From Haematococcus lacustris (lineage: Eukaryota > Chlorophyta > Chlorophyceae > Chlamydomonadales > Haematococcaceae), in NCBI GenBank assembly GCA_030144725.1, contig JASKMD010000002.1:1633611-1697610 (forward strand): 64,000 nucleotides of DNA, given 5' to 3'. Each line of letters opens with the position of its first letter. Position 1 is the stretch's first letter. Shown one piece after another: positions 17,493-57,701 of this stretch. Below the pieces are notes generated by a model that was not told where the DNA came from, ran no database searches, and worked only from the letters and a program-made list of their open reading frames with translations. Both the position numbers and the translations under genes were made by a program.

Positions 17493-17699
17493 TCAGGCCG
17501 ACAGCCTGATGTAGGTCCAAGCACAGCCCTTCAGTGCCCATGAGGGCATGCAGGTACTCTCATCTGGGTCAGGTCCAAGGCTAGTGTCAGCAACACAGCA
17601 GCAGGCTGGCAGTGAACACAGCATGTGCAGTAAGGAGGCCGCACAGCAGCTGGGGCGACCCGGCTAGGAGCCCAGGACCAACGGTATATGCCAGGTGGC

Positions 17700-17713
17700 G
17701 GATCAGCAGGACC
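17700..17713 (+). promoter_or_regulatory. Shared 14-bp histone promoter motif upstream of H1 copy 1
   Basis: GGATCAGCAGGACC, 111 bp before the H1 ATG, just downstream of a GTATATG stretch. Same motif as in the H4/H3 and H2B/H2A promoters. Confidence 0.65.
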
Positions 17714-17823
17714 CAGTCAGCAGGGCTCGCCCAGTGCTACATTACGCACTGCTCGCGCACTCAGCTGCAACCCGCTGTCCACGCATTCCGCACCCGCAGT
17801 TCGCAGCCCGCAAGAAAGCAACA

Positions 17824-18723
17824 ATGTCTGAAACCGCTCCCGCCCCTGCCCCAGCTCCCAAGGCGAAGGCCAGCAAGCTCAAGTCGCCCGCGACGCACCC
17901 GGGCTTCACCGTCATGATTGTGGAATGCATCACCGCCCTGAAGGAGCGCACTGGCAGCAGCCTGCCTGCCATCAAGAAGTGGATCCAGGCTAAGGTCAGT
18001 GGCCCTGCCTTCACCCAGACCACTCAGCCCTGGTGTCTTGACTGCTGTTCCTTCCAACCAGCTGCCCTGCTGCTGTCAAGGGTAAGAGTGACTCTTCATG
18101 TGTGTGCTGTGCTGCTGCAGTATGCCAAGGACCTGCCCTCCACATGGGAGAAGATCCTGTCCGTCCAGCTGAAGCGCATGGCTGACACCGGTGCCTTGGT
18201 CAGGGTCAAGGCCAGCTACAAGCTGGGTGAGGCTACCAAGAAGGCTGCAGCCAAGAAGCCCACCACACCCAAGAAGCCTGCTGCAGCCAAGGCTGCCAAG
18301 CCTGCCAGTGCCATGAAGACCGATGCTTCTGGTGCAAAGAAGTCTCCTGCTGCCAGGAAGGCAGTCACCAAGGCAGCCAAGCCCACTGACTCCGGCAAGA
18401 AGTCCCCTGCTGCAGCTAAGCCCAAGGCAGCTGCAGTCAAGAAGGCCCCCGCTGCAACCAAGACAGCCAAGCCTGCTGCAACCAAGCCCAAGGCAGCCAA
18501 GCCTGCTGCAACCAAGCCCACGGCAGCCAAGCCTGCCGCAGCCAAGCCCGCTGCAGCCAAGCCCAAGGCCAGCAAGGCACCTCAGCCTGCAAAGTCTACA
18601 GGTGTCAAGAAGGTCAAGGCTGCAGCACCCAAGGCCAGCAAGGCAGCCACCCCCAGCAAGACCAAGAAGGCAGAGGCCCCCAAGGCCAAGAAGGCAGCAG
18701 CTCCTAAGACCACCAAGGCCTAG
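17824..18723 (+). CDS. H1: Linker histone H1, copy 1
   Basis: Two exons, 17824-17994 and 18121-18723, with a 126-bp GT-AG intron in phase 0 inside the globular domain; 257 residues. The intron happens to be open, so an unspliced reading looks like a longer protein. The start is the ATG at 17824 (ACAATGTCTGAAACC), since an upstream in-frame ATG at 17695 lies in the promoter. Short Pro/Ala tail, winged-helix domain (HPGFTVMIVECITALKERTG, SSLPAIKKWIQAK, YAKDLPSTWEKILSVQLKRM, GALVRVKASYKLG), then about 160 residues of Lys/Ala/Pro repeats (KPAATKPKAAKPAA) that bind linker DNA. A histone stem-loop follows. The second copy at 37179-38093 has 262 residues. Confidence 0.95.
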   Translation: MSETAPAPAPAPKAKASKLKSPATHPGFTVMIVECITALKERTGSSLPAIKKWIQAKVSGPAFTQTTQPWCLDCCSFQPAALLLSRVRVTLHVCAVLLQYAKDLPSTWEKILSVQLKRMADTGALVRVKASYKLGEATKKAAAKKPTTPKKPAAAKAAKPASAMKTDASGAKKSPAARKAVTKAAKPTDSGKKSPAAAKPKAAAVKKAPAATKTAKPAATKPKAAKPAATKPTAAKPAAAKPAAAKPKASKAPQPAKSTGVKKVKAAAPKASKAATPSKTKKAEAPKAKKAAAPKTTKA

Positions 18724-22894: not shown

Positions 22895-23858
<964 letters not shown>

Positions 23859-24597: not shown

Positions 24598-30959
<6,362 letters not shown>

Positions 30960-32418: not shown

Positions 32419-32838
32419 TTACACCTCCTCTGACTCGCCCTTCTTGCTCGTCTTCTTGGGCATGAGCACGGCTTGGATGTTGGGAAGCACACCGCCACAT
32501 GCGATGGTGACCTGGCCCAGCAGCTTGCTCAGCTCCTCGTCGTTGCGCACGGCCAGCTGGATGTGGCGGGGCACGATGCGGGTCTTCTTGTTATCGCGGG
32601 CTGCGTTGCCGGCCAGCTCCAGCACCTCGGCCACCAGGTACTCCAGCACGGCGGCCAGGTACACGGGGGCACCGGCACCCACGCGCTCCGCGTACTTGCC
32701 CTTCTTCAGGTAGCGGGCGATGCGGCCCACGGGGAAGGCCAGGCCAGCCTTGCTGGAGCGGCTCACTGCCTTCTTGCCACTGGTGCCCTTGCGGCCACTG
32801 GCGGGGGCTGCCTTGGCGGACTCGGTCTTGGGGGCCAT
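32419..32838 (-). CDS. H2A: Histone H2A, copy 2
   Basis: 139 residues, intronless and intact: tail [20 protein letters not shown], fold [20 protein letters not shown] and [20 protein letters not shown], docking region [20 protein letters not shown], tail [12 protein letters not shown] without an SQ motif, so canonical H2A and not H2A.X. It differs from copy 3 by Thr for Ser in the tail, Cys for Ser in VTIA(C/S)GG and a terminal Val for Ala. Divergent partner of H2B copy 2. Module 2 is inverted relative to modules 1 and 3. Confidence 0.97.
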
Positions 32839-33091: not shown

Positions 33092-33484
33092 ATGGCCCCC
33101 AAGGCAGCTGAGAAGGCTCCCGCCAAGAAGGCCGCCCCCGCCAAGACCGGCGACAAGAACAAGCTGGGCGTCGCAGGCGACAAGAAGAACAACAAGAAGG
33201 TGGCCAAGGTGGAGAGCTACAAGCTGTACATCTACAAGGTGCTGAAGCAGGTGCACCCCGACACCGGCATCAGCTCCAAGGCCATCTCCATCCTGAACTC
33301 CTTCGTCAACGACATCTTCGACAAGATTGCCAGTGAGGCCTCGCGCCTGGCCCGGTACAACAAGAAGCCCACCGTGACCTCCCGCGAGATCCAGACCGCC
33401 GTGCGCCTGGTGCTGCCCGGCGAGCTGGCCAAGCACGCCGTATCCGAGGGCACCAAGGCTGTCACCAAGTTCACCTCCGTCTGA
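33092..33484 (+). CDS. H2B: Histone H2B, copy 2
   Basis: 130 residues, same protein as copies 1 and 3 despite synonymous changes. Intronless; starts 15 bases after the conserved CAGCTCTAAACC stretch and is followed by the palindrome at 33524. Core histone partner of H2A. Confidence 0.97.
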
Positions 33485-37178: not shown

Positions 37179-38093
37179 CTAGGCCTTGGTGGTCTTAGGG
37201 GCTGCTGTCTTCTTGGCCTTGGGGGCCTCTGCCTTCTTGGTCTTGCTGGGGGTGGCTGCCTTGCTGGCCTTGGGTGCTGCAGGCTTGGCCTTCTTGACAC
37301 CTGTAGGCTTTGCAGGCTGAGGTGTCTTGCTGGCCTTGGGCTTGGCTGCCTTGGGCTTGGCTGCCTTGGGCTTGGCTGCAGCAGGCTTGGCTGCCTTGGG
37401 CTTGGTTGCAGCAGGCTTGGCTGCATTGGGCTTGGTTGCAGCAGGCTTGGCTGTCTTGGTTGCAGCGGGGGCATTCTTGACTGCAGCTGCCTTGGGCTTG
37501 GCTGCAGCAGGGGACTTCTTGCCAGAGTCAGCGGGCTTGGCTGCCTTGGTGACTGCCTTCTTGGCAGCAGGGGACTTCTTTGCACCAGAAGCATCAGCCT
37601 TGATGGCACTGGCAGGCTTGGCAGGCTTGGCAGCAGCAGGCTTCTTGGGTGTGGTGGGCTTCTTGGCTGCAGCCTTCTTGGCAGCCTCACCCAGCTTGTA
37701 GCTGGCCTTGACCCTGACCAAGGCACCAGTGTCAGCCATGCGCTTCAGCTGGACGGACAGGATCTTCTCCCATGTGGAGGGCAGGTCCTTGGCATACTGC
37801 AGCAGCACAGCACACACATGAAGAGTCACTCTTACCCTTGACAGCAGCAGGGCAGCTGGTTGGAAGGAACAGCAGTCAAGACACCAGGGCTGACTGGTCT
37901 GGGTGAAGGCAGGGCCACTGACCTTAGCCTGGATCCACTTCTTGATGGCAGGCAGGCTGCTGCCAGTGCGCTCCTTCAGGGCAGTGATGCATTCCACAAT
38001 CATGACGGTGAAGCCCGGGTGCGTCGCGGGCGACTTGGGCTTGCTGGCCTTCGCCTTGGGAGCTGGGGCAGGGGCGGGAGCGGTTTCAGACAT
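37179..38093 (-). CDS. H1: Linker histone H1, copy 2
   Basis: Exons 38093-37923 and 37796-37179, with a 126-bp GT-AG intron at the same place as in copy 1; 262 residues. The globular domain is essentially identical to copy 1. The Lys/Ala/Pro tail is five residues longer through changes in the AAKPKAAKPK repeat number. Same promoter motif (38204-38217) and stem-loop. The intron is again open in frame, which makes a longer apparent ORF. Confidence 0.95.
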   Translation of the reverse strand: MSETAPAPAPAPKAKASKPKSPATHPGFTVMIVECITALKERTGSSLPAIKKWIQAKVSGPAFTQTSQPWCLDCCSFQPAALLLSRVRVTLHVCAVLLQYAKDLPSTWEKILSVQLKRMADTGALVRVKASYKLGEAAKKAAAKKPTTPKKPAAAKPAKPASAIKADASGAKKSPAAKKAVTKAAKPADSGKKSPAAAKPKAAAVKNAPAATKTAKPAATKPNAAKPAATKPKAAKPAAAKPKAAKPKAAKPKASKTPQPAKPTGVKKAKPAAPKASKAATPSKTKKAEAPKAKKTAAPKTTKA

Positions 38094-42892: not shown

Positions 42893-43285
42893 TCAGACGG
42901 AGGTGAACTTGGTGACGGCCTTGGTGCCCTCGGACACGGCGTGCTTGGCCAGCTCGCCGGGCAGCACCAGGCGCACGGCGGTCTGGATCTCGCGGGAGGT
43001 CACGGTGGGCTTCTTGTTGTACCGGGCCAGTCGCGAGGCCTCACTGGCGATCTTGTCGAAGATATCGTTGACGAAAGAGTTCAGGATGGAGATGGCCTTG
43101 GAGCTGATGCCGGTGTCGGGGTGCACCTGCTTCAGCACCTTGTAGATGTACAGCTTGTAGCTCTCCACCTTGGCCACCTTCTTGTTGTTCTTCTTGTCGC
43201 CTGCGACGCCCAGCTTGTTCTTGTCGCCGGTCTTGGCGGGGGCGGCCTTCTTGGCGGGAGCCTTCTCAGCTGCCTTGGGGGCCAT
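42893..43285 (-). CDS. H2B: Histone H2B, copy 3
   Basis: 130 residues, protein identical to copies 1 and 2, intronless. Divergent from H2A copy 3. Confidence 0.97.
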
Positions 43286-43540: not shown

Positions 43541-43960
43541 ATGGCCCCCAAGACCGAGTCCGCTAAGGCCGCCCCAGCCAGTGGTCGCAAGGGCAGCAGC
43601 GGCAAGAAGGCAGTGAGCCGCTCCAGCAAGGCTGGCCTGGCCTTCCCCGTGGGCCGCATCGCCCGCTACCTGAAGAAGGGCAAGTACGCGGAGCGCGTGG
43701 GTGCCGGTGCCCCCGTGTACCTGGCCGCCGTGCTGGAGTACCTGGTGGCCGAGGTGCTGGAGCTGGCCGGCAACGCAGCCCGCGATAACAAGAAGACCCG
43801 CATCGTGCCCCGCCACATCCAGCTGGCCGTGCGCAACGACGAGGAGCTGAGCAAGCTGCTGGGCCAGGTCACCATTGCATCTGGCGGTGTGCTTCCCAAC
43901 ATCCAGGCCGTGCTCATGCCCAAGAAGACGAGCAAGAAGGGCGAGTCAGAGGAGGCTTAA
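43541..43960 (+). CDS. H2A: Histone H2A, copy 3
   Basis: 139 residues, intact, intronless; reads across GKYAER without the insertion found in copy 1, and so defines the empty site. Ends KKGESEEA. Canonical H2A paired with H2B copy 3. Confidence 0.97.
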
Positions 43961-44039: not shown

Positions 44040-44951
44040 TACAAGGAAGTGACAGTGGCTTGTTTTTTGCCAGCTTAAACTAGCAACCCAGCTTGCTTTC
44101 CACAATGCATGATTGTTGCTACATTGTAGTCCCTGTCACCTGCCTGGCTGTCGCGTAGAGGGGTGGGGATTGGCAGCCATTGCCATGAACCAGGCATGTG
44201 ATTTCGGTGGATTTGAGGCTTGCAGAGGGTCATGGGCATCTGCTGCCCTTGATGTTTGTCTGAAAGAAGGCAATGTGGTGTTGTTGAAAAGGCTCAGTGT
44301 CTGCTGCCAGTAGCATATTCAGCAGCCACACATGTAGGGTTTAGCTTGGCCCATAACAAGGGCACAAAGGGATGTAGGAACTGCTGCCCCACACATCTTC
44401 ACCAGCCTGCACTGCATTACCCCCTGCTAGGCTGATCCCCATTGACACCATCAACACTGTTTGCAATGTGTGGACGAGCCAATGGCAGGCCTACATGCAG
44501 GACCCTAGCGCCGCTGACACTGCAACATGGACAGGTGCGCCTGCACTACTTTATCCATGCAAGGCCAGGGGTTGCTGATGCATGCGATGCTTGATTACTT
44601 ACGTGATGTGCACAGTGAGGACCAGCATGGCTATGATCAGACTGGGTAAGCGTGGTTGTAGTGTTGAGCATGGGTGATGGCGCAGGTGGAGTGTGGGTTG
44701 CGGAAGTGCAAGAGGTGCACCACTTGCACAAAGGCAGATTGATGTGGATGCTGTGCTCATCTCATCTTTTCATTGCAAGTGCAATGCATACCTCAGGTTA
44801 GAGTCTGGGGATAAAGGTCTTGAATGCAGGGACATGAGGCGGTTCATGGTTGACTTGTGTGCACCCATCTATGTGCATGCCGTCAGGGAGCGGTTTGCCG
44901 TGACCTTAACGACGTTGAGCCATCGATCACCTAAACCACTTCAATACAAGA
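44040..44951. other. Left flank of the retrotransposon; no recognised gene
   Basis: A plus-strand open stretch from 44693 runs into the element and would continue on the far side at 57702-57790. It includes RLESGDKGLECRDMRRFMVD. It has no recognised domain, but may be an exon disrupted by the insertion. Confidence 0.3.
44936..44951 (+). repeat. Target-site duplication, left copy
   Basis: CCACTTCAATACAAGA, identical to 57686-57701. Confidence 0.9.
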
Positions 44952-45127
44952 AAGAAAGAAAGACTACGCCCTCGCCGTCGGGCGTGCATTAAGGGGGGAG
45001 AGTAGCCTCGGGGCGTGCCCTTGCTACCCTCCCACCGGAGACAGGTGGGGGGGGGTGGGGAGGGAGGGTTGCCAGGCTACCGGGCGCACCCAGGGGCCAT
45101 GTCAAAATCCTCCCTCCCCCGCATGGC

Positions 45128-48100
45128 TCATCCAGCCGGTGCCCTTGCCGTTCGTGTCCATTGTTTGGTTTGCTGTTTCGGCGGTTCAGCTTGCCGTCTC
45201 GCTACAACGAGTGCATGTGCAGTTTGTATCGCATGTCGGTGTAGCCACTTCAGCAGGTTGTCGTTTGTGTCCTGGACTCCTAGCTCTAGAAGTCGCTTAT
45301 GGGTGTGGTCCTTGTATATTGTGCCACCCACTCCTAGCATGATGTTGATTTGTTTCGCGGAGGCGCAGTTGATGCCTGGTTGGAGTGCTTGAAGCAAGTT
45401 GGCGTGCTGCGCAGTCGCTTTGTGTAGTTGTTCCGTTGGGTCGGTGTCCATGCAATATTTTATTTCTATCAGGGTCACATGTCTATGCATCAGCGGGATC
45501 TTCGTCGCCGGTCCTTCGTAGGGCCCGTTTGGGGAGATAATCACGGCGTCCGGGTAGGTGATTCGTCCTGTAGTGGTGGGGTCTATGTCGAGCGCGCGTC
45601 TCAGGTTTTTGCGTTTGAGCTTGCTTTTGATCGGAGAAGCTGTGTCGCTGTCCTCGTACAGGTCGCCGACATCGGTGAAGACCAGGCCGGCGCCGAGGGC
45701 TCCATCCTGCACGGCTCGGAGGATGGCGCGGCCGGCCGCATTGTGGCGGTGCGTGACTAGCTTGTTCGTAGCAGTGCAACCTGACAGGATGTGTAGAGCG
45801 CTGTCCGGCTGGCCGCATAGTGGGCAGTTTGTGCTGTCGCTGAGACCAAAACGGACTGCGTGCTTCTGATTGTAAAGAGTGCCAGTTCTATAGCGCATTA
45901 TGCACCGTTGTTGTGGCGTGGTGATGGCCCCATCGCGCCAAAGGAAGTTGCTCATCTTGTGTGCTATGAGGGTGATGGACTGCCATGCCTCGTAGTAGAT
46001 GGAGTCTTGGTTGGCCAGTCCAAGTCTATGTCTGGTGTGCATATGTGCTTTCAGGCTGCCCGTCAGGTCTCCTAGTGGCCGGGGGGGGTGGTCCTCCTTC
46101 CCAGGAGTTTGCAGCCAATGGATGTCGTGGTAGGGATCCTTGCAACCTGGGATGGTGATGTCATGGTTATCATGTTGTGCTGCCAGTTTGGCTGTGTGGT
46201 CGGCGTATTCGTTGCCGATGATGCCATTGTGTGCTCTCACCTTGAAGAGGTGTATCGTGGTAGGGCTAGCTTTGATTGTTTGTACTATGGTGGTAAGGAT
46301 ATCCTTGTGCTTGTGCAGGTGGAGACGCATGGGTTGGAGGACAGCCATCCTGATTTGAAACATGGCGGTGAGGCTGTCGGTGGCGATGTGTGTGTGCCCT
46401 TGGTCTAGTGCTGCCTTGATGGCTGCGAGCTCGGCTCTTGTGATTGTGTTGGTAGCCCCCTCTCCACTGGGGTTGATGGTTTGGTGTTGTTGTGTGCCCT
46501 GGGGGTGGTAGATGCCTGCTCCAATGCGTTGGAGTGCTCCTGGTGCTGTGGTGCAGCTGCCATCGGTGTATGTCCATGATTTCCAGTCCCCAACCTTTGA
46601 TTGGAGGTGGGTGCCGCTCCAGTGGGTATCGGGGGTGTGAGAGGTGGGGGGGAGGGCTATGGGGGGTGTTGGTGCATCTTGGGGTAGTTTCCTGTAGGTG
46701 CCAGCCCCTGTCAGGCTTGTGTGGGCCGGCGGTGGGGGGGGTTGGCGTGTGTTTAAGGGGGGTAGGAACTTCCTACCAGCGAGCTGACTCAAGGCGCTGC
46801 GCAAGCTGTCGAGCCATAGTGGGTTCCGTGCTTGCAGATGATGTATTGCGCTCGTGTTGTGAATAAGTACGAGCAATGAGTGGTGTTTGTTGCTGCAGGT
46901 GTACGGTATGCTCCCAGCCCACGCTTGCGGCGGGTCTGGCTGCAGCGCATGGGGTGCGAAGGTGCCAATTTTGGTGCACAGGTGGGGGTGCTCAGAAATC
47001 CACCGCATGTATGTTGCAGAGTTTGTGCGTCCTTTGTTGGGCAGGAGCATGGCAGTGAGGGTTGGTGTGTGTGTTGGGGCTTGTGCTGCGTGTAGGGCGT
47101 GGCGCACAGCCATAGTGATGTCTGCCTTGGTGGGTTGGGCCCATGACATGCCTTGGTGCTGGCAGAGTAGGGGGGGGCCCAGTGAGCCAAACAGTTTGTC
47201 GTTTTCGCATGGGCTGTAGTACTCTTCAAAGAGTGCGCTGCAGTGGAGAGGGGTGGTGTAGCGTTCCTTGGTGATCTCCAGGTGTTGTCTCAGGATGTGG
47301 ACGATTGGTGTGGGGGTTGTGTGTGTGGCATCAGCGGTTGCTTGGCCATGCCTTGCCAAGAGGCTGGCAAGCTCTGCGGCAAAGCTGGTGTTTAGGGGTG
47401 TCGGGGCGTTCTTCTGTGTTGCGTTGTATCTAGATAGCAGGTTTGCTGCTCGGGCGGGTGCAATGACTCCCACGCATTTACCATCTGTGTTGTAGACGGC
47501 TACGACCTGCTGTGTGATTGGTTGGGGTAGGGCTTGTGTGGGGGCTGGGGTTGGTTGGCAGGGGTAGAAGTCTGCATGTCGAAGCCACACTTCGCACCTT
47601 CCAGTTGGGCATATGTCAAGCTGCGGGTTAGTGGGGAGGATATCAAATCTAATTTTTGAGCGTAGCGGGTCGCCGTGCGTGGACTGCCATTGTCCACGTG
47701 CAGTGTCGCTCATGCTTTGTCGCATCAGATCGTCGTTAATGTCGCCGTCCTTGCGAGTGCTTGTGAGTGCGTATTGCCTAGCCTCCTTCTCTGTTCTGTA
47801 CTCCTCCATGTGCTCGCAGAAGTCTGTATGGTGATTTAGCATGGTAAATGCCTCCGCGCTGGGTTCCCAGTGGACCTCTACTATCTCCTCGTCAGCAGCG
47901 GCTCTGCGTGCCTCCTTATCGTGTGGAGCTAGCGGTGCGCAAGAGGGGCATTCCCATTCTGCGTTGTCATCAGAGCCAGGTCTTTCACTTGGCTTGGCGC
48001 ATTTGCAGTCAAGAAGGCACTGCCAGTGGTACGTGCGTTGGCATGTGTCACAGACATACATGTCTACAGCATCTGCATCATTCTCCCTGCTGTTGGGTGA

Positions 48101-51100
48101 CCAGCATAGCTCACAGTCGCAGTCGTCGTCCCTGAGTTGGCTGCGTGGGTAGGGCTTTACGCTCTGCGGGTGGTAGCCGTTCTTGGCGTAGAGGGGTAGG
48201 GCCCATTTCTCAACTCTTGACGGGTGCCATGTTACCCAGTATTGCTGTTGCATGGTGCCACCAACCTCCTCTTTAGATTGTTGCTTTTGGTGTGTCCTTC
48301 TTGCTGCTTTGGGGCGTAGGTCTAGGCCAAATGTGGTGTTAGTAATCTGCCAGCCAAAGACCTTCTTGATCTTCTCCCTGTGCCTGAACATCTGATTCAA
48401 CATCATTTGGCTGTGGCTAACTGTGCCACTTGTGGCTTGGTCCTCCTTCCAGGTGTATAGCTGGGTCGGGTTCAGGTGTGGCAATGGGAGGTCAGTGGCA
48501 TCAGGTAGGGCTACTCTGCCCATGCTCTTGTTGCCGGTGGGTGGTTTCGGCGCAGGCCTCTTGTTGTTGATATTCTGTGGGTCGGTTGTGGTTGCAGGGT
48601 TATGGTTTGTTGTGTGTTGTGTGTTTGTGTGGGGTGGTGGGGCAGCAGTGGGTTGCGTGGGTGGCTTATTGAAGAGGTCGGTGATGCGAATGACTTGGTT
48701 GGAGGCGATTGAGACCTGCCAGTTCCACCCCGGTAGTGCGTATGTGCTTTTGTCAGTCCACTGGCAGGCTGTGAGGCCTCCCATGCTGTGGTGCGTCTGC
48801 CTGTGTTTGAGGTCCAGGTCAAGGTTGATGTCCCGGTGGTTCATGATGGCTTGCAGTTGGTCTGGGGTGGGTTCCTCCCCTAGCTGAAGCAGCAGGCGCA
48901 GGCGGTTTAGGGCTCCAATGTGTTTGTGTGTTGCCCTCCTGCCCCTTTGTTTGGCGAGGGCCCGCAACTCTCTGCCTGATATGATGTTGGTGCCTTTCAT
49001 TTCTAAGAGCTGGTGGGGACCGGAGAAGCCAAGTGCAATGAGGGGGCCCACTATGGCACGCATCACTCTAGTGTGGTGTTTGTCTAGGGGTTGGGCCACC
49101 GATGCTGTGTGTATAGCATGTAGCTGTGCCAACAGGGGGGGGTCAATGGTGGTGCCTTGGAGTGCCACTTGCAGGGAGCTGTTGTGGGCGCAGAGCAGCT
49201 GGCGAGTGCGAGAGCATTTCTGCAGCTCCTTCTGAGTCTGATGTCTGGATGGCTTTTGGGCTAGCAGCTGCGAGAGGTACGTGATCTGCATGGCAAGCAT
49301 GGACCTGGTGACCTTGCCGTAGCGGCCCTCCGCTTGAAGTCCTTCCAAAAGTGTCTTCACGCAGCGGCTGTTGTATTCCACTGCCAGTGAGGTGCATCCT
49401 AGGCCAAAGGTGTCTGTATCTTCACGGATCATGGCGCTAGGTGCGCTGACCCACAGGCCAAACCTGCGTTTCATCATTGTGGTTATCATGCTGTCCCATG
49501 CTTCTAAGTCAGTAGCTGAGCAGGGTGTCACTGGAAAGGCATAGGCCAAGCAGGTGGCCACTGCCGTCTTCACGATGTGGAGGGTCTGACGAGGTGAGGC
49601 GTATGATGTGCGGAGGCATTCAAGCCTGGAGCGGAGGGTGTCAGTCATGCGTCTATGCTGGTGCTTCCAGTCGAGGGTCATGGTGATGTTGACACCTAGG
49701 TACAGGAAGGGCTGGGTGGGGGGGAGGTACTGAGTGGCCTGCCCTTGCACCTCAATCTGGCCATGGAGCTGGGCTGCCACCTGGGCTGTAGGGTCATTTG
49801 TGCCATAGACTTTTGTCTTGGCCTTTTGGTGTAATATGCCTGTTACTTTGGTTTTGCTGCCTGACACTTGCAGGCTGCCCCAAGTGGAGAACTCTGTGAG
49901 CTTATGCGCCTGGATCTTAAGGTCGGAGAGACACGAGGTGAGAATGATGAGGTCGTCTGCAAAGGCTAGGCTGCTCAATTTGTTTTGGTGTCGTAGAGTG
50001 TTGTCCTGGTGCTGGGTTGCATCGAGGCAGCTGTGCTCATACCCTCTGCCTCCAACGTGCAGCCATCGCAAGAGCGGCTCCATGTAGATTAGGAATAGTA
50101 GAGGGGAAAGAGAGTCTCCTTGGATAGTGCCTCGTGTGATAGGAACAGGTTGGCCTTTCAGTTGTGGTGTGAGCTGTACTGTGCTGCTCGCTCCGGTGTA
50201 GAGATCTTTTACTGCCTCAATGGCGTCTGTGGGAAAGCCCAGGTCATACATGATCCAGAGTGTCTTATCCTGATCGGTGGTGTTAAAAGCAGAGGTAAAG
50301 TCTACGATGAGTGCGTAGATGTCTTGTTGGCCTATCTTGGCGTCTTCGAGGGCCATGACTAGGCTTTGCAGTTGGGTCATAGTGTCTTGGTGCCGGCGGA
50401 AGCCTGCCTGGCAGCTACTAAGGACGTTGTGTTGTTCAGCATACTCGTATAGTGCCACTGTGATCATACGCGTCCATAGTTTGTAGAGGGTGTTGGCAAG
50501 GCCGATGGGTCTGTAGTTGGCTAGGTCAGTCTCGGACCCCTTGTTTTTGTAGATGAGCACAGTGTTGCTAGTCTTCCATCCGGTGGGGGTGAGGCCTGTC
50601 GCCCATAGGACTGTGAACATGTCGTGTATGGCGGTCGTGATTTCGTCCGGTAGCATTTTCAGTAGTTCGTTAGGTATGTCATCTGGTCCTGGTGCTTTGC
50701 CGCTGCTCAGCTGTTTTAGGCATGTGTGGAAGGTTGCGGTGTCCTGGATCGTGGAGTTAAGCCACGCCCTCTTTGCTCTGTTGCCTTCCAGGTCTGGCTC
50801 TTCTCGCTGGGTGGCGCCCGTCTTGAGTGTGAAGCGGTCAATGGCATTGGGCTGCTCCCAAGGTGCCTTTCTAGGGCAGTGTTCTGGTAGGTATGTCCCT
50901 GATTTGCTACCTGTGGCGGCCCACGTTCGCGTAAAGTAGCGGTCAGCTACCTGGACAAGTTGTGTGGGGTCTGTTGCCAGCGCACCAGTTCTGTCATCGT
51001 GTAGGGCTGTGATGGTGTGGCGTTTGCTCGATGGTTGAAAGATGGCCTTGTTTGCTACCCTTGGTTTGGTGTGAATGAGCTTCTGGGCAGCTGCTCTGTG

Positions 51101-54100
51101 TCTGTCAGCATGGATAGCTGCCTGCTCTTTGTCATAGGAATGTAGGGCTGTTTTTGTGTGTTTGTAGGCTAGTTTTAGGGCAGTGTGGAAAGGGGTACCG
51201 TCTTTGTGGTACATCCGTATGATGTCTAGTGCTGTCTGCTTGGCCGCTGTAGGTACTTTGCAGGAGGGGAGGGGAGGCACATGTGTTAGTGCGTCGGTGA
51301 TGGTGCTTCCCCTGTAGTCACTCAGGTGGTGCTGTGCATGCTTGATCCATAGGTGGGTGTGCCGCTTGTGGCTTCTGAGTTTGTTGCAGCCTCGCAGCCG
51401 GTAGTGTTGACCTGTGGCATTATGGGTTTTGGTTTGGCAGTTTTCTATTGCCACCTTGAGGCATTTGTCCAGGAGATTGTGCATATGGGTGGCCAGCTCA
51501 TTCACAACTATTGGTGCACTGGTTCCATCGATGTGGGTTAGTTGCTGGATAGATTTGGCGCAACTGTTGGTGATGGCTGCATAGTGTGCTTGTGCCGCTG
51601 TTTTAGCAGGTCTCAGGGTCAATTGCAGGCGTGCTAGGAGTTGTGGAATGTTGTTGTTCGTGTCTTGGCAGGCTTGCTTGAACTTCTCCTGGTCTTCTTT
51701 GCTGACTGGAGTTGTGAGCGCTTTTTTGCAGGTCTGTCTTAAGGTCGGCAATGTGGGTATGGCAGGTATGTTGAGGCCAGTGGACGTGATATCTAGGGCC
51801 ATAGTGAGGGGTAGGTGGTCGCTGAGCCCGCCTCCCCATTTGCTTGCGCAGGCTAGCAGCCGTATTTTTGCGGGGCTGTTGCGTGTGAGGATGTCATCAA
51901 TGCGGCTGTCAGTACTTTGTGGCTGGCCTGTTTCGTCTGCCTCCTTCCATTGCCTGTGTGTGGCTTTTCTATCTTCTTGTTGCACTGGCTGCAGGTTCTG
52001 GGAGTGCAAGAAAGCCCTGTACTCCATGTCCTGCGGGTAGGTGGTGTTGCTGCTCCTGTCATTGGGCCGCCAGGTGGCATTCATGTCTCCTATCATTAGG
52101 GGGAGGTGTGATCTGTGTGCATTTAGGAGTGTTGTTATGGTGTCTTGCATGGCGCGGCGGGCTGAGGACGCTGCTGCGCTGTGTCCTGATGGCCAGTAGG
52201 TACCTATCAGGATGACTGGCGTGGAGTTTGTGGGCTGCAGGGTGGCTGTGACCAGTCTCCCAGCAGTGTCAGCGGTGTTTGCTTTGGCTGTAGATGCCAC
52301 CGCTATAGAGCGCTTGACAGCTAGGATGGTACCTGCGGTGTGGTGGTGGCTGTGCCACCAGGTGTAGTCACGTAACATTGTTTGCAGCCATCTTGGGGCC
52401 ATCTTGCTCTTCCTGCCTATCTTGGTCTCTGTGAGTACTAAGATGTCTGGGTTGTCGTCCAGGATCAGCTCTATGACGTCTTGTCTCTTTGTGTAGAGGC
52501 CTTGTGTGTTGAGTGTGCTGATTGTGAGGTTGCTGATCATGGGAATGGGTTTGGGGTCAAGTGTGGTTGTTGGTTCCATTGTGATGGCAGGCTGGCCTGT
52601 ACAGGCGTTGTTGTGGGGGTTGGTGCTGGGCGTGGGACCTGGCTCGGAGGGAGTCTTCGGGGAGAGGAAGTTGGTAATGCGAATTTGGCGCTTGGTGCTG
52701 TGGTCGTGGGTGGTAACTCTGGTTGGGCGGCGCTTCTTTGTCATGGGGGGCACTTGTTGCATGGGCCTGCTGGGGGGGGGTGGCTCTGCTGCCAGGGGTG
52801 GGGATGGGTTGAGGCGAAGGGTTGGGGTTGGGGTTGGGGTTGGGGTTGGGGTTGGGGTTGGGGTTGGGGTTGGGGTTGGGGCTGGGGCTGGAGCTGGGGG
52901 TGGTGGTGCCTGTCTGCGTTTGGTATGTTTGGTTGTAGGGTTCGCGGGGATGGTTCTCTTGGATCTATGGTTCAGGGCGGTATTAGGAGCAGGCATTGCT
53001 CTGGTCTCATGTGCTTCTGTGAGGTCTATAGGGGTCGTGTGATTGGCAAGGTGTGCGGCTAGGTCTTGAGGTGTGTAGCCTGCCTGGGGGTCTGCTAGCC
53101 ATATCTCTCTACGGACAAATGTTGTGTGCTCTACGTTGCCTGTAGTGATGGTCAGCAGGCTGCCCTGTAGGCGATGCCAGTCAAGGGGCGTGTTGAGCGG
53201 TTGTGGTGCGTGGCGTAGCGAGTCCAGCCAGAGCCATCCTTGTGAGGTGTGCCTTATAGCAGTCGCATGGCCGATGTCTTTGCCATCGCTACAAGAGAGG
53301 AGGATGATTGCGCTTGTGCATGTTGCACCTGTGTCTGTTATTGCACCAAGGATTTTACCGGGTGTGATGCTGCCTCTGGTGAGGGGTTGGGTGGCGGGGT
53401 GTAGATAGGTATTATGATGTGTGCGGTGGAGGTAGTGGTTCAGTGTGTCTAATGAGAACTTGCCTTCTTTGTCGTAGATATGGCTTGTGTGCAATGCTCT
53501 CACTGCAAGCCCCATGCCTCGGGCTTGTTGTGCTAGTTGTTGCATGTGGTCCGCCAGGTTCTTACAATGTCTAATGACTGCTTGATGGTCTATCAGCTTG
53601 ACTCCCATGGCCATGTTGCAGGCATGTACAAGGCAGCAGTTATCATGTTGACACTCCATGTATGGGGGCTGGGGTCGGTTTGGCAATGTGTACCTGGGTA
53701 TGTTCTCTTCCTTATGACTTATGATGTGGCATACACCTTCTCGTCTTAGGGCTATGGTTTGTGTCGGTGTGGCTGCTGGGTCTGGTGCAATGACGAATAT
53801 CTCGTGGAAGGTTGTTCTGTAGAGAGGCGACAACTCGTGAATTGGTATAGCTGCTTTACTGGGGCTGTTGGAGTCTAGGAGCTTCCAATGGCCGCCAAGT
53901 TTTCTAATTGCCATGCTGTGACCGTTCGTTTTACATAAGAAGTTAAGGGTGGCGTACATTATCGCCAATGCGTCAAACTTGTCGTCGCTCCAGTCCTCTG
54001 CGGTGTGCAGTTGGGCGACGCTTGTAAGAGTGAGGCCGAAGTGTGTCTGAAGATAGAGGTGGATGACCTCGTCGCTAAGTGCACCTCCGTCGCCACGTGC

Positions 54101-57100
54101 AATCAACCACGCCTTCCTGTCTCCTGCGTCGTGAAGTGTATATTGCCAGGCTTTCCAAAAAGTGTGAAGGTCATTAGGTTTCACCCAATGCTTGCCAGCT
54201 GCATTGTTAAGGGAGTGGGCTTGACAGTTGCGATCTATTTGTACTTCGAAATAAAGGGGGTTAGGGTTGGCTCCTGAGTGATGCTCCTCACAGTGGGCTG
54301 GGCCGGGGTTAGCTTCAACATCCCCAGCGGCTAGCAGTAGCCAGGCCAAGTAGACAGCCCGGGCGGCAGAGAAGGGGTCCATGGTGCATGGGGTATTGTC
54401 TCTTCCATTTCTGTTGGCTGCTATCTGGTAGGTGCAGTAGACATGCAGTGTGCTGTTAAATTGGCTAACTGTGTAAGGATGGCTGCTGTTGGCTCCATGC
54501 GTAGAGAGGTGAAACCTGTCGGCCAGCTTACAGAGGGCACAAGAGGATGCTTGGGTGCCGTCTATCCCTGCCATGAGATTATAACAAGTGGTCCTAACCG
54601 TCGCTCTGATACGGGCAATTAGTTTCTTGTGTTTCCTAAAGCAACGTTTGGAATCCTTGATTGTGGGCTGCAAGGGGTGGCTTATGCGTTGGTAGAGTGT
54701 GTTCAGCAGGTGGGTGCATATAACATAGAGCATGAGCATGTTCATTAGCCTGTTATGTTGTTTAATGGTTGTCCCAATGTGTGTGGGTTGTGGTTGCTGG
54801 TGAACAGAGGGTTGTGGTTCTTGGTGGTGTGGGTTGTGGTTGTGGTGATGTGTGTCGTGGTTGTTGGTGATGTGGGTTGTGGTTGTTGGTGAACAGAGGG
54901 TATTGGGTATGACAGTCAGAGCTGGCAGGTGGTGGTAAGGCTTTGCAGGTGGTGGTGGTAAGGCTTTGCAAGTGGTGGTGGTAAGGCTTTGCAGGTGGTG
55001 GTAAGGCTTTTGCGCATCAGCATGTGTAGCTAGCATGGCTGTGTCATAAGGCTGTTCATGCCTGTCTGCCGTAGCTGAGGCTGGCAGGTGCCGGTGCAGC
55101 TGAGTAGCATGTCTCTGTTCGGCCTGCACATCAGCATCCGCAATTTGCATAGTTGTGTCAGATGTCTGGTTATGCCGGTGTGCAACATTCATAGCCGGCA
55201 GGTGGTGGCAGTGCTGAGGTGTATGTCGATTGGCTGCCTGCACATCAGCATGTGTAGCTAGCTTGGCTGTGTCATTAGGCTGCATGTCAGCATGGTTAGT
55301 CAGCATCTCTGTGACAGCCAGCTGGTCCTGCAAGGCTGAAGTGGTCGGGGCTGGCAGGTGGTAGTGAGGCTGGGCGCCATGTCTATTGTCAGCCTGCATG
55401 TCAGCATGGTTAGTTAGCATCCCTGTGACAGCCAGCTGGTCCTGCAAGGCTGAAGTGGTCGGGGCTGGCAGGTGGTAGTGAGGCTGGGCGCCATGTCTAT
55501 TGTCAGCCTGCATGTCAGCATGGTTAGTTAGCATCTCTGTGACAGCCAGCTGGTCCTGCAAGGCTGAAGTGCTCGGGGCTGGCAGGTGGTAGTGAGGCTG
55601 GGCGCCATGTCTATTGTCAGCCTGCATGTCAGCATGGTTAGTTAGCATCTCTGTGACAGCCAGCTGGTCCTGCAAGGCTGAAGTGGTCGGGGCTGGCAGG
55701 TGGTAGTGAGGCTGGGCGCCATGTCTATTGTCAGCCTGCATGTCAGCATGGTTAGTTAGCACCTCTGTGACAGCCAGCTGGTCCTGCAAGGCAGAAGTGG
55801 TCGGGGCTGGCACGTGGTAGTGAGGCTGGGCGCCATGTCTATTGTCAGCCTCTGTGACAGCCAGCTGGTCCTGCAAGGCAGAAGTGGTCGGGGCTGGCAC
55901 GTGGTAGTGAGGCTGGGCGCCATGTCTATTGTCAGCCTGCATGTCAGCATGGTTAGTCAGCATCTCTGTGACAGCCAGCTGGTCCTGCAAGGCTGGAGTG
56001 GTCGGGGCTGGCAGGTGGTAGTGAGGCTGGGCGCCATGTCTATTGGCAGCCTGCACGTCAGCATGGTTGGTTGGCATCTCTGTGACAGCCAGTTGGTCCT
56101 GCAAGGCTGAAGTGGTCGGGGCTGGCAGGTGGTAGTGAGGCTGGGCGCCATGTCTATTGGCAGCCTGCATGTCAGCATGGTTAGTCAGCATCTCTGTGAC
56201 AGCCAGTTGGTCATGCAAGGCTGAAGTGGTCGGGGCTGGCAGGTGGTAGTGAGGCTGGGCGCCATGTCTATTGGCAGCCTGCATGTCAGCATGGTTGGTT
56301 GGCATCTCTGTGACAGCCAGTTGGTCATGCAAGGCTGTGTCGGTTGGGGCTAGCAGGTGGTGGGGGGGCTGGGCGCCATGTCTATTGTCACCCTGCATGT
56401 CAGCTAGCATTGTTGTGTCAAGTGGTTGGTCATGCCGGGCTGTAGCAGCTGAGGCTGGCAGGTGGTGGTAATGCTGAGCATCATGTTTAACGTCAGCCTG
56501 CGCATCAGCATGTATAGCTTGCATAACTGTGTCACAGGATTGGTCATGCAAGGCTACATGAGAGAAGACTGGCAGGTGGTGGTGCAGTTGCGGTGCATGT
56601 CTCTTGTCAGCCTGCGCATCGGCGTGTGAAACCTGTGTCATTGTGTCAGGCGGCTGGTCATGCCCGGCTGGTGCCGTGAGCTTGTAGCGTTCAGATGTAC
56701 CTACGGACGCCAGGTCTGGCGAGGTGTAAGAGCCAAAGCAGGGGGTGTCAGGGGGCTTAGCACAGCTGGTAGAGGCATGGCTGGTCATGTGCTTAGTACA
56801 GTATGCCATCACGTGTGTTGATTGTGTCTGCAGGGGGGTGCCAGGTGGCTCAGCATCACAGCCAATAACATGCCTGGCTGTGTGTCTACTGTGGCACACC
56901 ATAGCGTGTGTAGCAGCCTTCCATGTATGGGTCCTTGGCTGAGCCTGCAGGGGGGTGTCAGGTGGTTCTCCACTGTGGGCTTTAGCCTGCCTAGCAGAGT
57001 GCCTGCTGCAGCGCATCATCATGTCAGCAACGGCATCACAGGTTTGGATTCCTGGTAAAGCTTGCCAGGGGGTGTCAGATGGCTCACCACTACTGGCTAT

Positions 57101-57532
57101 AGCTTGGCTGGTCCTTCTGTTGCTCCATGATTGGTCTGTGACAAGCTGGGCTGTCCACGGCTGTCTTTTGCTACTTGAGCTGTCGATTGCGACCAAACTG
57201 GCTGTCTGGATGTCGGCACCACTCCACCTGTTCATCTCTTCTGTCGTTGGCGTCTGGGAGAGTTTAAGCACCGCCTGTTCCACGTCGTTGCACCTGTTGC
57301 AGACATCGCATCTGGGCAGCATTTGGAACCCATCTCTTTCCCGTTTTGTGGCCAGTGGGTCAAAGGTGAACATGCTCCAGGACCCACTGGTTGGACCCGC
57401 CGCGTTTGTATACTCAGACGATTGCAGCCGAAGGCCCGCAATCCCGTTAGCATAGCCGCATTGGACCAGTGGGGGAGCAGAGGTCCCCATCAGAATATAG
57501 CACAGGCACAGGCAGGCAAACAGGCGCGCCAT
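45128..57532 (-). CDS. Retrotransposon polyprotein: 2A-split, protease, APE, RT, PHD, RNase H and restriction-like endonuclease
   Basis: The first ATG is 57532 (an upstream in-frame GTG at 57568 is not a credible start); 4134 residues. Approximate order: signal peptide MARLFACLCLCYILMGTSAP; His/Ala-rich 38-residue repeats (378-750); 2A motif AAGDVEANPGP ending at 1078; Josephin-like protease (about 1280-1450: MECQHDNCCLVHACN, GHATAIRH, WLWLDS, a Cys-His-Asp order); Thr-Pro repeat (about 1555); APE endonuclease (about 1665-1915: STLNTQGL, LTETKI, GDMNATW, SRIDDI, SDHLPL); reverse transcriptase (about 2260-2585: KAPGPDDIP, YRPIGL, QAGFRR, DFTSAFN, GTIQGDSLSPLLF, FADDLIIL); PHD finger (about 3130-3200: CELC, CDTC, YHWQC, WECPSC); RNase H (about 3645-3785: TDGS, AELAAI, TDSL, RAHNGIIGNEYAD); zinc knuckle plus restriction-like endonuclease (about 3900-4030: CPLCG, ITYPDA, LIEIKY). 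All catalytic residues look intact. The region just before RNase H is unassigned. Confidence 0.9.
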   Translation of the reverse strand: MARLFACLCLCYILMGTSAPPLVQCGYANGIAGLRLQSSEYTNAAGPTSGSWSMFTFDPLATKRERDGFQMLPRCDVCNRCNDVEQAVLKLSQTPTTEEMNRWSGADIQTASLVAIDSSSSKRQPWTAQLVTDQSWSNRRTSQAIASSGEPSDTPWQALPGIQTCDAVADMMMRCSRHSARQAKAHSGEPPDTPLQAQPRTHTWKAATHAMVCHSRHTARHVIGCDAEPPGTPLQTQSTHVMAYCTKHMTSHASTSCAKPPDTPCFGSYTSPDLASVGTSERYKLTAPAGHDQPPDTMTQVSHADAQADKRHAPQLHHHLPVFSHVALHDQSCDTVMQAIHADAQADVKHDAQHYHHLPASAATARHDQPLDTTMLADMQGDNRHGAQPPHHLLAPTDTALHDQLAVTEMPTNHADMQAANRHGAQPHYHLPAPTTSALHDQLAVTEMLTNHADMQAANRHGAQPHYHLPAPTTSALQDQLAVTEMPTNHADVQAANRHGAQPHYHLPAPTTPALQDQLAVTEMLTNHADMQADNRHGAQPHYHVPAPTTSALQDQLAVTEADNRHGAQPHYHVPAPTTSALQDQLAVTEVLTNHADMQADNRHGAQPHYHLPAPTTSALQDQLAVTEMLTNHADMQADNRHGAQPHYHLPAPSTSALQDQLAVTEMLTNHADMQADNRHGAQPHYHLPAPTTSALQDQLAVTGMLTNHADMQADNRHGAQPHYHLPAPTTSALQDQLAVTEMLTNHADMQPNDTAKLATHADVQAANRHTPQHCHHLPAMNVAHRHNQTSDTTMQIADADVQAEQRHATQLHRHLPASATADRHEQPYDTAMLATHADAQKPYHHLQSLTTTTCKALPPPPAKPYHHLPALTVIPNTLCSPTTTTHITNNHDTHHHNHNPHHQEPQPSVHQQPQPTHIGTTIKQHNRLMNMLMLYVICTHLLNTLYQRISHPLQPTIKDSKRCFRKHKKLIARIRATVRTTCYNLMAGIDGTQASSCALCKLADRFHLSTHGANSSHPYTVSQFNSTLHVYCTYQIAANRNGRDNTPCTMDPFSAARAVYLAWLLLAAGDVEANPGPAHCEEHHSGANPNPLYFEVQIDRNCQAHSLNNAAGKHWVKPNDLHTFWKAWQYTLHDAGDRKAWLIARGDGGALSDEVIHLYLQTHFGLTLTSVAQLHTAEDWSDDKFDALAIMYATLNFLCKTNGHSMAIRKLGGHWKLLDSNSPSKAAIPIHELSPLYRTTFHEIFVIAPDPAATPTQTIALRREGVCHIISHKEENIPRYTLPNRPQPPYMECQHDNCCLVHACNMAMGVKLIDHQAVIRHCKNLADHMQQLAQQARGMGLAVRALHTSHIYDKEGKFSLDTLNHYLHRTHHNTYLHPATQPLTRGSITPGKILGAITDTGATCTSAIILLSCSDGKDIGHATAIRHTSQGWLWLDSLRHAPQPLNTPLDWHRLQGSLLTITTGNVEHTTFVRREIWLADPQAGYTPQDLAAHLANHTTPIDLTEAHETRAMPAPNTALNHRSKRTIPANPTTKHTKRRQAPPPPAPAPAPTPTPTPTPTPTPTPTPTPTLRLNPSPPLAAEPPPPSRPMQQVPPMTKKRRPTRVTTHDHSTKRQIRITNFLSPKTPSEPGPTPSTNPHNNACTGQPAITMEPTTTLDPKPIPMISNLTISTLNTQGLYTKRQDVIELILDDNPDILVLTETKIGRKSKMAPRWLQTMLRDYTWWHSHHHTAGTILAVKRSIAVASTAKANTADTAGRLVTATLQPTNSTPVILIGTYWPSGHSAAASSARRAMQDTITTLLNAHRSHLPLMIGDMNATWRPNDRSSNTTYPQDMEYRAFLHSQNLQPVQQEDRKATHRQWKEADETGQPQSTDSRIDDILTRNSPAKIRLLACASKWGGGLSDHLPLTMALDITSTGLNIPAIPTLPTLRQTCKKALTTPVSKEDQEKFKQACQDTNNNIPQLLARLQLTLRPAKTAAQAHYAAITNSCAKSIQQLTHIDGTSAPIVVNELATHMHNLLDKCLKVAIENCQTKTHNATGQHYRLRGCNKLRSHKRHTHLWIKHAQHHLSDYRGSTITDALTHVPPLPSCKVPTAAKQTALDIIRMYHKDGTPFHTALKLAYKHTKTALHSYDKEQAAIHADRHRAAAQKLIHTKPRVANKAIFQPSSKRHTITALHDDRTGALATDPTQLVQVADRYFTRTWAATGSKSGTYLPEHCPRKAPWEQPNAIDRFTLKTGATQREEPDLEGNRAKRAWLNSTIQDTATFHTCLKQLSSGKAPGPDDIPNELLKMLPDEITTAIHDMFTVLWATGLTPTGWKTSNTVLIYKNKGSETDLANYRPIGLANTLYKLWTRMITVALYEYAEQHNVLSSCQAGFRRHQDTMTQLQSLVMALEDAKIGQQDIYALIVDFTSAFNTTDQDKTLWIMYDLGFPTDAIEAVKDLYTGASSTVQLTPQLKGQPVPITRGTIQGDSLSPLLFLIYMEPLLRWLHVGGRGYEHSCLDATQHQDNTLRHQNKLSSLAFADDLIILTSCLSDLKIQAHKLTEFSTWGSLQVSGSKTKVTGILHQKAKTKVYGTNDPTAQVAAQLHGQIEVQGQATQYLPPTQPFLYLGVNITMTLDWKHQHRRMTDTLRSRLECLRTSYASPRQTLHIVKTAVATCLAYAFPVTPCSATDLEAWDSMITTMMKRRFGLWVSAPSAMIREDTDTFGLGCTSLAVEYNSRCVKTLLEGLQAEGRYGKVTRSMLAMQITYLSQLLAQKPSRHQTQKELQKCSRTRQLLCAHNSSLQVALQGTTIDPPLLAQLHAIHTASVAQPLDKHHTRVMRAIVGPLIALGFSGPHQLLEMKGTNIISGRELRALAKQRGRRATHKHIGALNRLRLLLQLGEEPTPDQLQAIMNHRDINLDLDLKHRQTHHSMGGLTACQWTDKSTYALPGWNWQVSIASNQVIRITDLFNKPPTQPTAAPPPHTNTQHTTNHNPATTTDPQNINNKRPAPKPPTGNKSMGRVALPDATDLPLPHLNPTQLYTWKEDQATSGTVSHSQMMLNQMFRHREKIKKVFGWQITNTTFGLDLRPKAARRTHQKQQSKEEVGGTMQQQYWVTWHPSRVEKWALPLYAKNGYHPQSVKPYPRSQLRDDDCDCELCWSPNSRENDADAVDMYVCDTCQRTYHWQCLLDCKCAKPSERPGSDDNAEWECPSCAPLAPHDKEARRAAADEEIVEVHWEPSAEAFTMLNHHTDFCEHMEEYRTEKEARQYALTSTRKDGDINDDLMRQSMSDTARGQWQSTHGDPLRSKIRFDILPTNPQLDICPTGRCEVWLRHADFYPCQPTPAPTQALPQPITQQVVAVYNTDGKCVGVIAPARAANLLSRYNATQKNAPTPLNTSFAAELASLLARHGQATADATHTTPTPIVHILRQHLEITKERYTTPLHCSALFEEYYSPCENDKLFGSLGPPLLCQHQGMSWAQPTKADITMAVRHALHAAQAPTHTPTLTAMLLPNKGRTNSATYMRWISEHPHLCTKIGTFAPHALQPDPPQAWAGSIPYTCSNKHHSLLVLIHNTSAIHHLQARNPLWLDSLRSALSQLAGRKFLPPLNTRQPPPPPAHTSLTGAGTYRKLPQDAPTPPIALPPTSHTPDTHWSGTHLQSKVGDWKSWTYTDGSCTTAPGALQRIGAGIYHPQGTQQHQTINPSGEGATNTITRAELAAIKAALDQGHTHIATDSLTAMFQIRMAVLQPMRLHLHKHKDILTTIVQTIKASPTTIHLFKVRAHNGIIGNEYADHTAKLAAQHDNHDITIPGCKDPYHDIHWLQTPGKEDHPPRPLGDLTGSLKAHMHTRHRLGLANQDSIYYEAWQSITLIAHKMSNFLWRDGAITTPQQRCIMRYRTGTLYNQKHAVRFGLSDSTNCPLCGQPDSALHILSGCTATNKLVTHRHNAAGRAILRAVQDGALGAGLVFTDVGDLYEDSDTASPIKSKLKRKNLRRALDIDPTTTGRITYPDAVIISPNGPYEGPATKIPLMHRHVTLIEIKYCMDTDPTEQLHKATAQHANLLQALQPGINCASAKQINIMLGVGGTIYKDHTHKRLLELGVQDTNDNLLKWLHRHAIQTAHALVVARRQAEPPKQQTKQWTRTARAPAG
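52812..52882 (+). repeat. (GGGGTT)n hexanucleotide tract inside the retrotransposon ORF
   Basis: About ten GGGGTT units on the plus strand, encoding a (Thr-Pro)n linker on the minus strand between protease and APE domains. It could form a G-quadruplex in the antisense strand. Confidence 0.85.
54299..54382 (-). other. 2A ribosome-skipping sequence
   Basis: Encodes MDPFSAARAVYLAWLLLAAG followed by DVEANPGP; the Gly-Pro junction lies at 54302/54301. The D-V-E-x-N-P-G-P core is complete, and the preceding Leu-rich stretch is like that of active 2A sequences. It would separate a 1077-residue upstream product from a 3057-residue enzyme product. Confidence 0.85.
55285..56400 (-). repeat. 114-bp tandem repeat coding 38-residue units
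   Basis: About ten units, ADNRHGAQPHYHLPAPTTSA then LQDQLAVTEMLTNHADMQ. Neighbours are nearly identical and one unit lacks nine residues. Degenerate units lie on both sides, which shows growth from the middle. Confidence 0.9.
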
Positions 57533-57685
57533 TGTCTTCGGCGTCCAGGTCCAAGGTCCAGGGTCCACGATGCGGTACTCGTTCGGCTCGTCTCGGCGTG
57601 CAACTTCACACGCCGTGCTCGAACGACCTCGTTGATGCGTCTGCGGTCAGAGAAAACAGAGCGAAGTTTTAGTCGAAAATTATAT

Positions 57686-57701
57686 CCACTTCAATACAAG
57701 A
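57686..57701 (+). repeat. Target-site duplication, right copy
   Basis: CCACTTCAATACAAGA, identical to 44936-44951. Confidence 0.9.

Follow-up and report, generated by a model that had tools for sequence, protein, structure and literature searches.

A conserved and very probably working 2A sequence in a Dualen/RandI-type LINE of Haematococcus lacustris

Does a non-LTR retrotransposon of a green alga use a 2A (StopGo) sequence to obtain two proteins from a single open reading frame? The question is raised by the window (the whole 64,000-nucleotide stretch of Haematococcus lacustris DNA analysed here), one long ORF of which contains a complete 2A motif. We consider it highly likely, judging from sequence comparisons, that this ORF belongs to an intact Dualen/RandI-type LINE, is read from its first AUG and yields two proteins by 2A skipping. 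The 2A itself is very probably a conserved and working one, in a Dualen-type LINE of the kind found in green algae.

In the proposed mechanism, one mRNA frame would be read from the first AUG (57532) until the ribosome reaches ...VYLAWLLLAAGDVEANPG, where the nascent 2A chain would block formation of the Gly-Pro bond. The 1077-aa upstream protein would be let go at the 2A, and the same ribosome would continue at Pro, producing a separate 3057-aa protein (Josephin-Josephin-APE-RT-RNase H-RLE). We infer that translation starts at the first AUG and that skipping takes place in the alga. The two products might be made at the “fixed ratio” proposed in the sequence-only reading of this DNA; 2A efficiencies are described as variable (excerpts of PMC12846837).

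The element, its reading frame and its enzymes

The anatomy of the element, its ends and its frame are directly visible in the window (Table 1). The element is bounded by an exact 16-bp target-site duplication, CCACTTCAATACAAGA. On the minus strand a short (CTTT)n run is directly followed by the 3' copy of the duplication, and because the target repeat overlaps the tail, the ends may move by one or two bases. In excerpts of PMC3747384, a (CTTT)n tail is given for SINEX-2_CR, a SINE with a RandI-2-like tail, and (ATT)n or (CTATTT)n tails for eight RandI LINE families; the tail of the window element is near, but not identical, to those published for Dualen/RandI LINEs. The insertion site is a histone gene cluster, with an H2A gene approximately 1 kb away. 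The eight histone ORFs comprise two linker histones, two with the H2A C-terminal domain and four other core-histone-like ORFs, one of which is best named H4, by length. The ORF 28932-29687 (minus strand) matched the ketol-acid reductoisomerase N-terminal domain. Scans of viral contigs and genome contigs yielded no relatives of the element.

Table 1. Coordinates of the features in the window
Feature	Position	Strand	Remarks
Complete Dualen/RandI-type non-LTR element, 12,734 bp	44952..57685	-	16-bp direct repeats, (CTTT)n tail
Target-site duplication, 5' side	57686..57701	.	16-mer identical to 44936-44951
Target-site duplication, 3' side	44936..44951	.	16-mer identical to 57686-57701
5' UTR, 153 nt	57533..57685	-	sequence inspection
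Single ORF, 4134 codons from first ATG, plus stop	45128..57532	-	
Predicted upstream product, 1077 aa, ends ...NPG	54302..57532	-	signal-peptide-like MARLFACLCLCYILMGTSAPPLVQC, 38-aa repeats, conserved C-terminal part
In-frame 114-bp (38-aa) tandem repeats, upstream product	55280..56404	-	
2A upstream context MDPFSAARAVYLAWLLLAA	54326..54382	-	
2A core GDVEANPG^P	54299..54325	-	predicted skip Gly1089/Pro1090, GTG ORF
Predicted downstream product, 3057 aa, begins with Pro	45131..54301	-	
Josephin-like domain 1	53708..54229	-	presumed triad C1115/H1217/D1232 (GTG-ORF numbering)
Josephin-like domain 2	53087..53665	-	presumed triad C1312/H1434/D1449 (GTG-ORF numbering)
APE-type endonuclease	51806..52522	-	Pfam
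Reverse transcriptase	49592..50761	-	Pfam, sequence matches to R2 and LINE-1 structures
RNase H	46178..46573	-	Pfam
CCHC zinc knuckle + PD...ExK, restriction-like endonuclease	45458..45826	-	motif, alignment, model
Histone ORFs	17695-18723; 23448-23858; 33092-33484; 43541-43960	+	
Histone ORFs	22895-23206; 32419-32838; 37179-38093; 42893-43285	-	

The 2A motif lies on the minus strand, a point absent from the sequence-only reading. The interval 54299-54382 encodes MDPFSAARAVYLAWLLLAAGDVEANPGP on that strand, its first codon being the ATG of MDPFS (54382-54380) and its last the final Pro codon, which ends at 54299. Three ORFs of the window exceed 300 aa, and the only one in this part (45128-57568) has 4146 codons counted from a GTG, or 4134 from the first ATG. 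It contains 0 stops before the terminal one, compared with 167 and 194 in the other sense frames and 115 to 216 in the antisense frames over the same stretch. The GDVEANPGP core with its Leu-rich lead-in was therefore correctly described as lying inside an unbroken ORF of 4134 codons. NPGP occupies residues 1087-1090 of the GTG ORF, and the position given earlier for the final Pro (1078, ATG ORF) agrees with residue 1090 in this numbering.

The domains that follow the 2A are, in order, Josephin, Josephin, APE, RT, RNase H and an R2-like endonuclease. Pfam recognised Josephin, APE (Exo_endo_phos, E 5.8e-10), RT and RNase H above the cut-off, and a custom profile resolved two Josephin-like domains. 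The Cys, His and Asp of both presumed triads were invariant in an 11-row alignment. A model of the Josephin pair (mean pLDDT 78, pTM 0.49) gave 12 PDB matches under E 0.001, all of them Josephin proteins (the best being ataxin-3, 1.1e-5); by sequence alone, the pair gave one weak match, to Josephin-2 (E 1.1). The Dualen/RandI elements of Chlamydomonas also encode a cysteine protease, which we take to be of the same Josephin kind as in the window element.

The C-terminal model had a mean pLDDT of 65, with the first 118 residues low and residues 121-370 mostly at 70-92. Its PDB matches below E 0.05 were R2 retrotransposon structures only, and the six best were all R2 (E 3.7e-5 to 1.2e-2, with three below 0.001). 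The CCHC, PD and ExK residues were invariant in a 9-row alignment; a loose pattern found CCHC + PD-ExK in 55 of the 82 proteins with an RNase H motif, and CCHC alone in 74. As described in excerpts of two papers, Dualen/RandI elements, including those of Chlamydomonas, combine an APE with a PD-(D/E)XK nuclease (PMC3636483) and possess RNase H (PMC4640811); these excerpts do not mention a 2A. The combination of the two nucleases in the window element fits this description, and the label Dualen/RandI-type is given on domain make-up; the RT tree comprised relatives from the first two protein searches and the window.

A PCIF1-like domain was also noticed in Dualen-type proteins (P0001, residues 3393-3472; P0062, residues 2874-3014, 51.8 bits), and was below the cut-off in the window element. 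The PCIF1 family includes the cap adenosine methyltransferase. An active methyltransferase was rejected, as the pattern [NDS]PP[FYW] was absent from the region in the 10 proteins checked, the single match among them (P0054) being outside it.

Conservation of the 2A sequence

The core satisfies, in frame, the StopGo rule (D/G/C/N)(V/I)ExNPGP, and the six residues before the D, LLLAAG, place the lead-in in the L-rich class of upstream contexts, which ends (A/S/C)G before p12 = D (both as given in excerpts of PMC12846837). According to the same excerpts, StopGo reached approximately 93 to 100% in rabbit lysate with four context classes, among them an L-rich one.

The composition of the ORF predicts 5e-6 chance occurrences of D[VI]ExNPGP, and conservation in relatives is, on the proteins compared, stronger evidence for the motif than this figure. 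Three protein searches provided 114 relatives (61 labelled H. lacustris, one Bosea and 52 others), the third, with a 561-aa piece, adding only P0113-P0115. ExNPGP was present in 37 of 115 proteins (the window's included), with 38 occurrences. Proteins were counted as covering the junction when they contained the first Josephin Cys motif and at least 20 residues before it, so that the count was not selected for the 2A motif. Thus defined, the junction was covered in 34 of the 62 Haematococcus/Bosea proteins (33 H. lacustris, one Bosea), the remaining 28 being without the Josephin Cys motif region and outside the 2A count. In 33 of these 34 relatives a 2A was observed directly, at most 45 residues before the first Josephin Cys motif. 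The sole exception, P0009 (H. lacustris), has unrelated sequence there and may be a spliced gene model. The sequence-only reading had proposed a search for the motif at this position in other copies of the element, and this is where it was found. A chance match or an assembly artefact, for which nothing speaks beyond the window copy taken alone, is already refuted by this conservation and disfavoured by the expectation given above, and we assign it practically no probability.

Among the 52 other relatives, a 2A was detected in three distant ones: P0062 (twice), P0087 and P0103. In P0028, P0063 and P0089 a long upstream part but no 2A precedes the two Josephin domains, which indicates that some elements of this kind can do without the 2A split. 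As far as these proteins represent the elements, one large algal group has strongly retained the 2A, and outside this group it is sparse. In a quick RT tree the window element was placed outside a cluster of 49 Haematococcus rows (cluster SH-aLRT 100) and joined P0064 and P0089 (SH-aLRT 90); many rows without a 2A are gene models without the junction, and the tree was not used for 2A gain or loss.

Two further observations concern individual relatives. Residues 607-760 of P0062 contain two tandem 2As with a Josephin start after each of them, as if a 2A-Josephin unit had been duplicated. The second 2A, whose final Pro lies 29 residues from the Josephin profile match, interrupts the first Josephin copy and so shortens it. 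P0113, labelled Bosea sp. and located on a 6.8-kb contig, is a Haematococcus-type fragment with a 2A, and is probably algal contamination.

As the copies were gathered by ExNPGP, their E and NPGP are fixed by selection, and the informative positions are the D, the preceding G and the V/I. Within the octapeptide the 38 copies varied only at p13 (V/I) and p15 (A/P/E/V/K), in keeping with the D(V/I)ExNPGP rule, and the D and the preceding G were invariant. When 22 relatives were aligned with the window element (23 sequences), WLLLA-x-GD(V/I)E-x-NPGP stood out as an island of conservation. Sequence and length varied strongly on both sides of it, at positions of about -24 to -15 relative to the Asn and in the linker that follows the Pro. 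Of the lead-ins in relatives, LLLACG fits the L-rich class and LLLAGG is close to it. The core was kept without a Leu-rich lead-in in P0016 (LVDAAG) and P0077 (VVRIAG), neither of which fits this class. In the copies with both features, 12 to 35 residues separate the final Pro from the first Josephin profile match.

Alternatively, the conserved segment might be a hydrophobic anchor or a protease site rather than a working skip site, with either cleavage by the Josephin or a host protease, or the fusion as the product. Two Josephin-like domains with intact presumed triads follow directly, and several relatives without a 2A have hydrophobic segments within approximately 160 residues before the Josephin. 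However, the invariant D, the V/I at p13 and the free p15 are what StopGo needs and are unnecessary for an anchor, the 2A is present in all but one of the junction-covering relatives, and solved Josephin proteins are described (in the titles of the PDB matches) as ubiquitin proteases. We regard this alternative as improbable and favour ribosome skipping; a protease of the Josephin type could also be able to cut the polyprotein.

The upstream region and a possible purpose of the proposed split

The sequence-only reading had also taken MDPFSAARAVYLAWLLLAA for a possible signal sequence. In this case translation would start at MDPFS and the 2A would double as a signal, in the style of sea-urchin NLRs, whose signal-2A lead-in is likewise hydrophobic and Leu-rich. 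The Met does lie 27 residues before the final Pro and is followed by a hydrophobic stretch, and the annotated start of P0003 is a Met near the equivalent place. However, the target-site duplications place the 5' end of the element at approximately 57685, and the first ATG after it (57532-57530; no other was seen in a by-eye reading of the 153-nt 5' UTR) is 3,150 nt upstream of MDPFS, whose Met is therefore internal. Moreover, the sequence before this Met is in frame and conserved (residues 962-1086, the 125 residues up to NPGP, are 83% identical to P0008), whereas the Met itself is replaced by Val, Leu or Phe in frame-keeping relatives. In sea-urchin NLRs, as far as excerpts of the report go, the signal-2A is N-terminal (Roulston et al. 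2016, PMC4981915); in the window element the 2A is internal, and a separate signal-like N-terminus precedes it by about 1050 aa. This part of the earlier proposal was not upheld, and we consider a dual-function N-terminal signal-2A very unlikely.

The N-terminus encoded by the element, MARLFACLCLCYILMGTSAPPLVQC, resembles a signal peptide. No sign of purifying selection was seen in the window's 38-aa repeats (8 synonymous and 23 non-synonymous codon differences), and a Pfam scan upstream of the 2A recognised no capsid.

Membrane-like segments were defined as 19 residues with a Kyte-Doolittle mean over 1.6, a crude scale with thresholds set after a first look. The scan covered 38 elements, i.e. 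the window and 37 of the 52 other relatives, with at least 150 aa before the first recognised domain (the very distant P0112 was removed by hand); the upstream parts of relatives are gene models, not transcripts. It revealed 70 segments in 29,235 aa of upstream sequence, for which shuffling gave an expectation of 19.0, and 5 in 90,851 aa from the APE to the end, at least one upstream segment being present in 30 of the 38 elements. Only two of the 70 were 2A lead-ins. Signal-like N-termini were found in 6 of the 38 elements, the window's included, gene-call N-termini being uncertain; internal Met positions reached a signal-like score in 26 of 615 cases upstream and 0 of 2341 downstream. Most of the upstream segments belonged to elements that have no 2A; among the four 2A-bearing elements, the window had an N-terminal segment, P0062 and P0103 the lead-in only, and P0087 none. 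In P0063, P0066, P0080, P0086, P0094 and P0110, five to nine membrane-like segments each precede the first enzyme domain; Pfam gave only weak matches in the upstream parts of P0063 and P0094 (pilin-like, E 0.82; DUF7462, E 0.046).

In H. lacustris, 29 proteins have a 2A preceded by at least 150 aa, and these contained 20 such segments in 26,950 aa. Nine of these were the lead-in, the 11 others were distributed over nine proteins, and 12 proteins were without any segment; two (P0032, P0054) had a signal-like N-terminus. For the 2A-bearing group a membrane reading is thus weak.

The purpose of the split is most likely to send the upstream protein and the enzymes to different destinations. More specifically, the protein that Dualen-type LINEs encode 5' of the enzymes might be targeted to the ER, lie in a membrane or be secreted (envelope-like or vesicle-related), and in some lineages a 2A might have arisen at the seam, letting that protein enter the secretory pathway while the RT and endonucleases remain in the cytosol or nucleus. 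We hold this proposal to be doubtful; the small number of such segments in the 29 H. lacustris proteins reduced an already low probability a little further. During ER translocation some upstream contexts inhibit the 2A (excerpts of PMC2978324), which would be a complication if the ER targeting were real.

Recombination, known systems and implications

The 2A also coincides with a change of affinity in the window element. Its identity to P0006 falls from 80-87% over residues 941-1100 to 43% in the following hundred, whereas that to P0002 rises from 28-42% to 72%. The informative residues were divided 69:5 to the left of the Pro and 7:61 to its right (Fisher 6.6e-26), with the best breakpoint at -6 to +16 around the Pro; one same-group control gave p = 1. 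The affinity returns to P0006 at 1299-1301 (5:67, then 43:7), and the 2A-bounded Josephin-1 cassette therefore has a different history. P0014 and P0005 look recombinant too, with breaks 10 to 67 residues before the final Pro (-36 to -10 and -67 to -33, respectively); among the recombinants examined, only the window element had its breakpoint on the 2A core. This suggests that skip sites may be tolerated joints for module exchange.

The placement of a 2A in a dual-endonuclease LINE, at a site that would split the ORF before the enzymes, agrees with the sequence-only reading, and the nearest relatives that bear an organism name come from green algae. Rao reportedly surveyed the 2As of eukaryotes and viruses systematically in 2025. 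In the LINE ORFs of animals (APE-type elements; Odon et al. 2013) and trypanosomes (L1Tc; Heras et al. 2006), both cited in excerpts of PMC11512398, PMC4981915 and PMC12846837, the 2A is likewise in frame; the window element differs in being of the dual-endonuclease Dualen type, with its 2A before a twin Josephin-type protease. The picornavirus 2A of the NPGP type also parts an upstream region from downstream replication enzymes within one ORF (excerpts of PMC4981915), whereas the window element is a retrotransposon in which Pfam recognised no upstream capsid. In the open-licence PMC literature we found no paper combining “2A-like” and “Haematococcus”, and none on a 2A in Dualen or algal LINEs among the matches listed (titles and abstract openings); we claim no priority.

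To conclude, few cellular genes are described as using StopGo, and no plant virus (excerpts of PMC12846837). A natural 2A that is conserved in green-algal LINEs would add the green lineage to its range. It would also provide algal-native 2A sequences for multigene expression in microalgae, and offer a way into the uncharacterised N-terminal half of Dualen elements. The membrane-like region upstream in many relatives, if real, raises the question of what use a secretory protein would be to a LINE. If the membrane reading were true, this would be a LINE with a virus-like split between a surface or membrane part and a replication part, and a natural user of StopGo in the green lineage.
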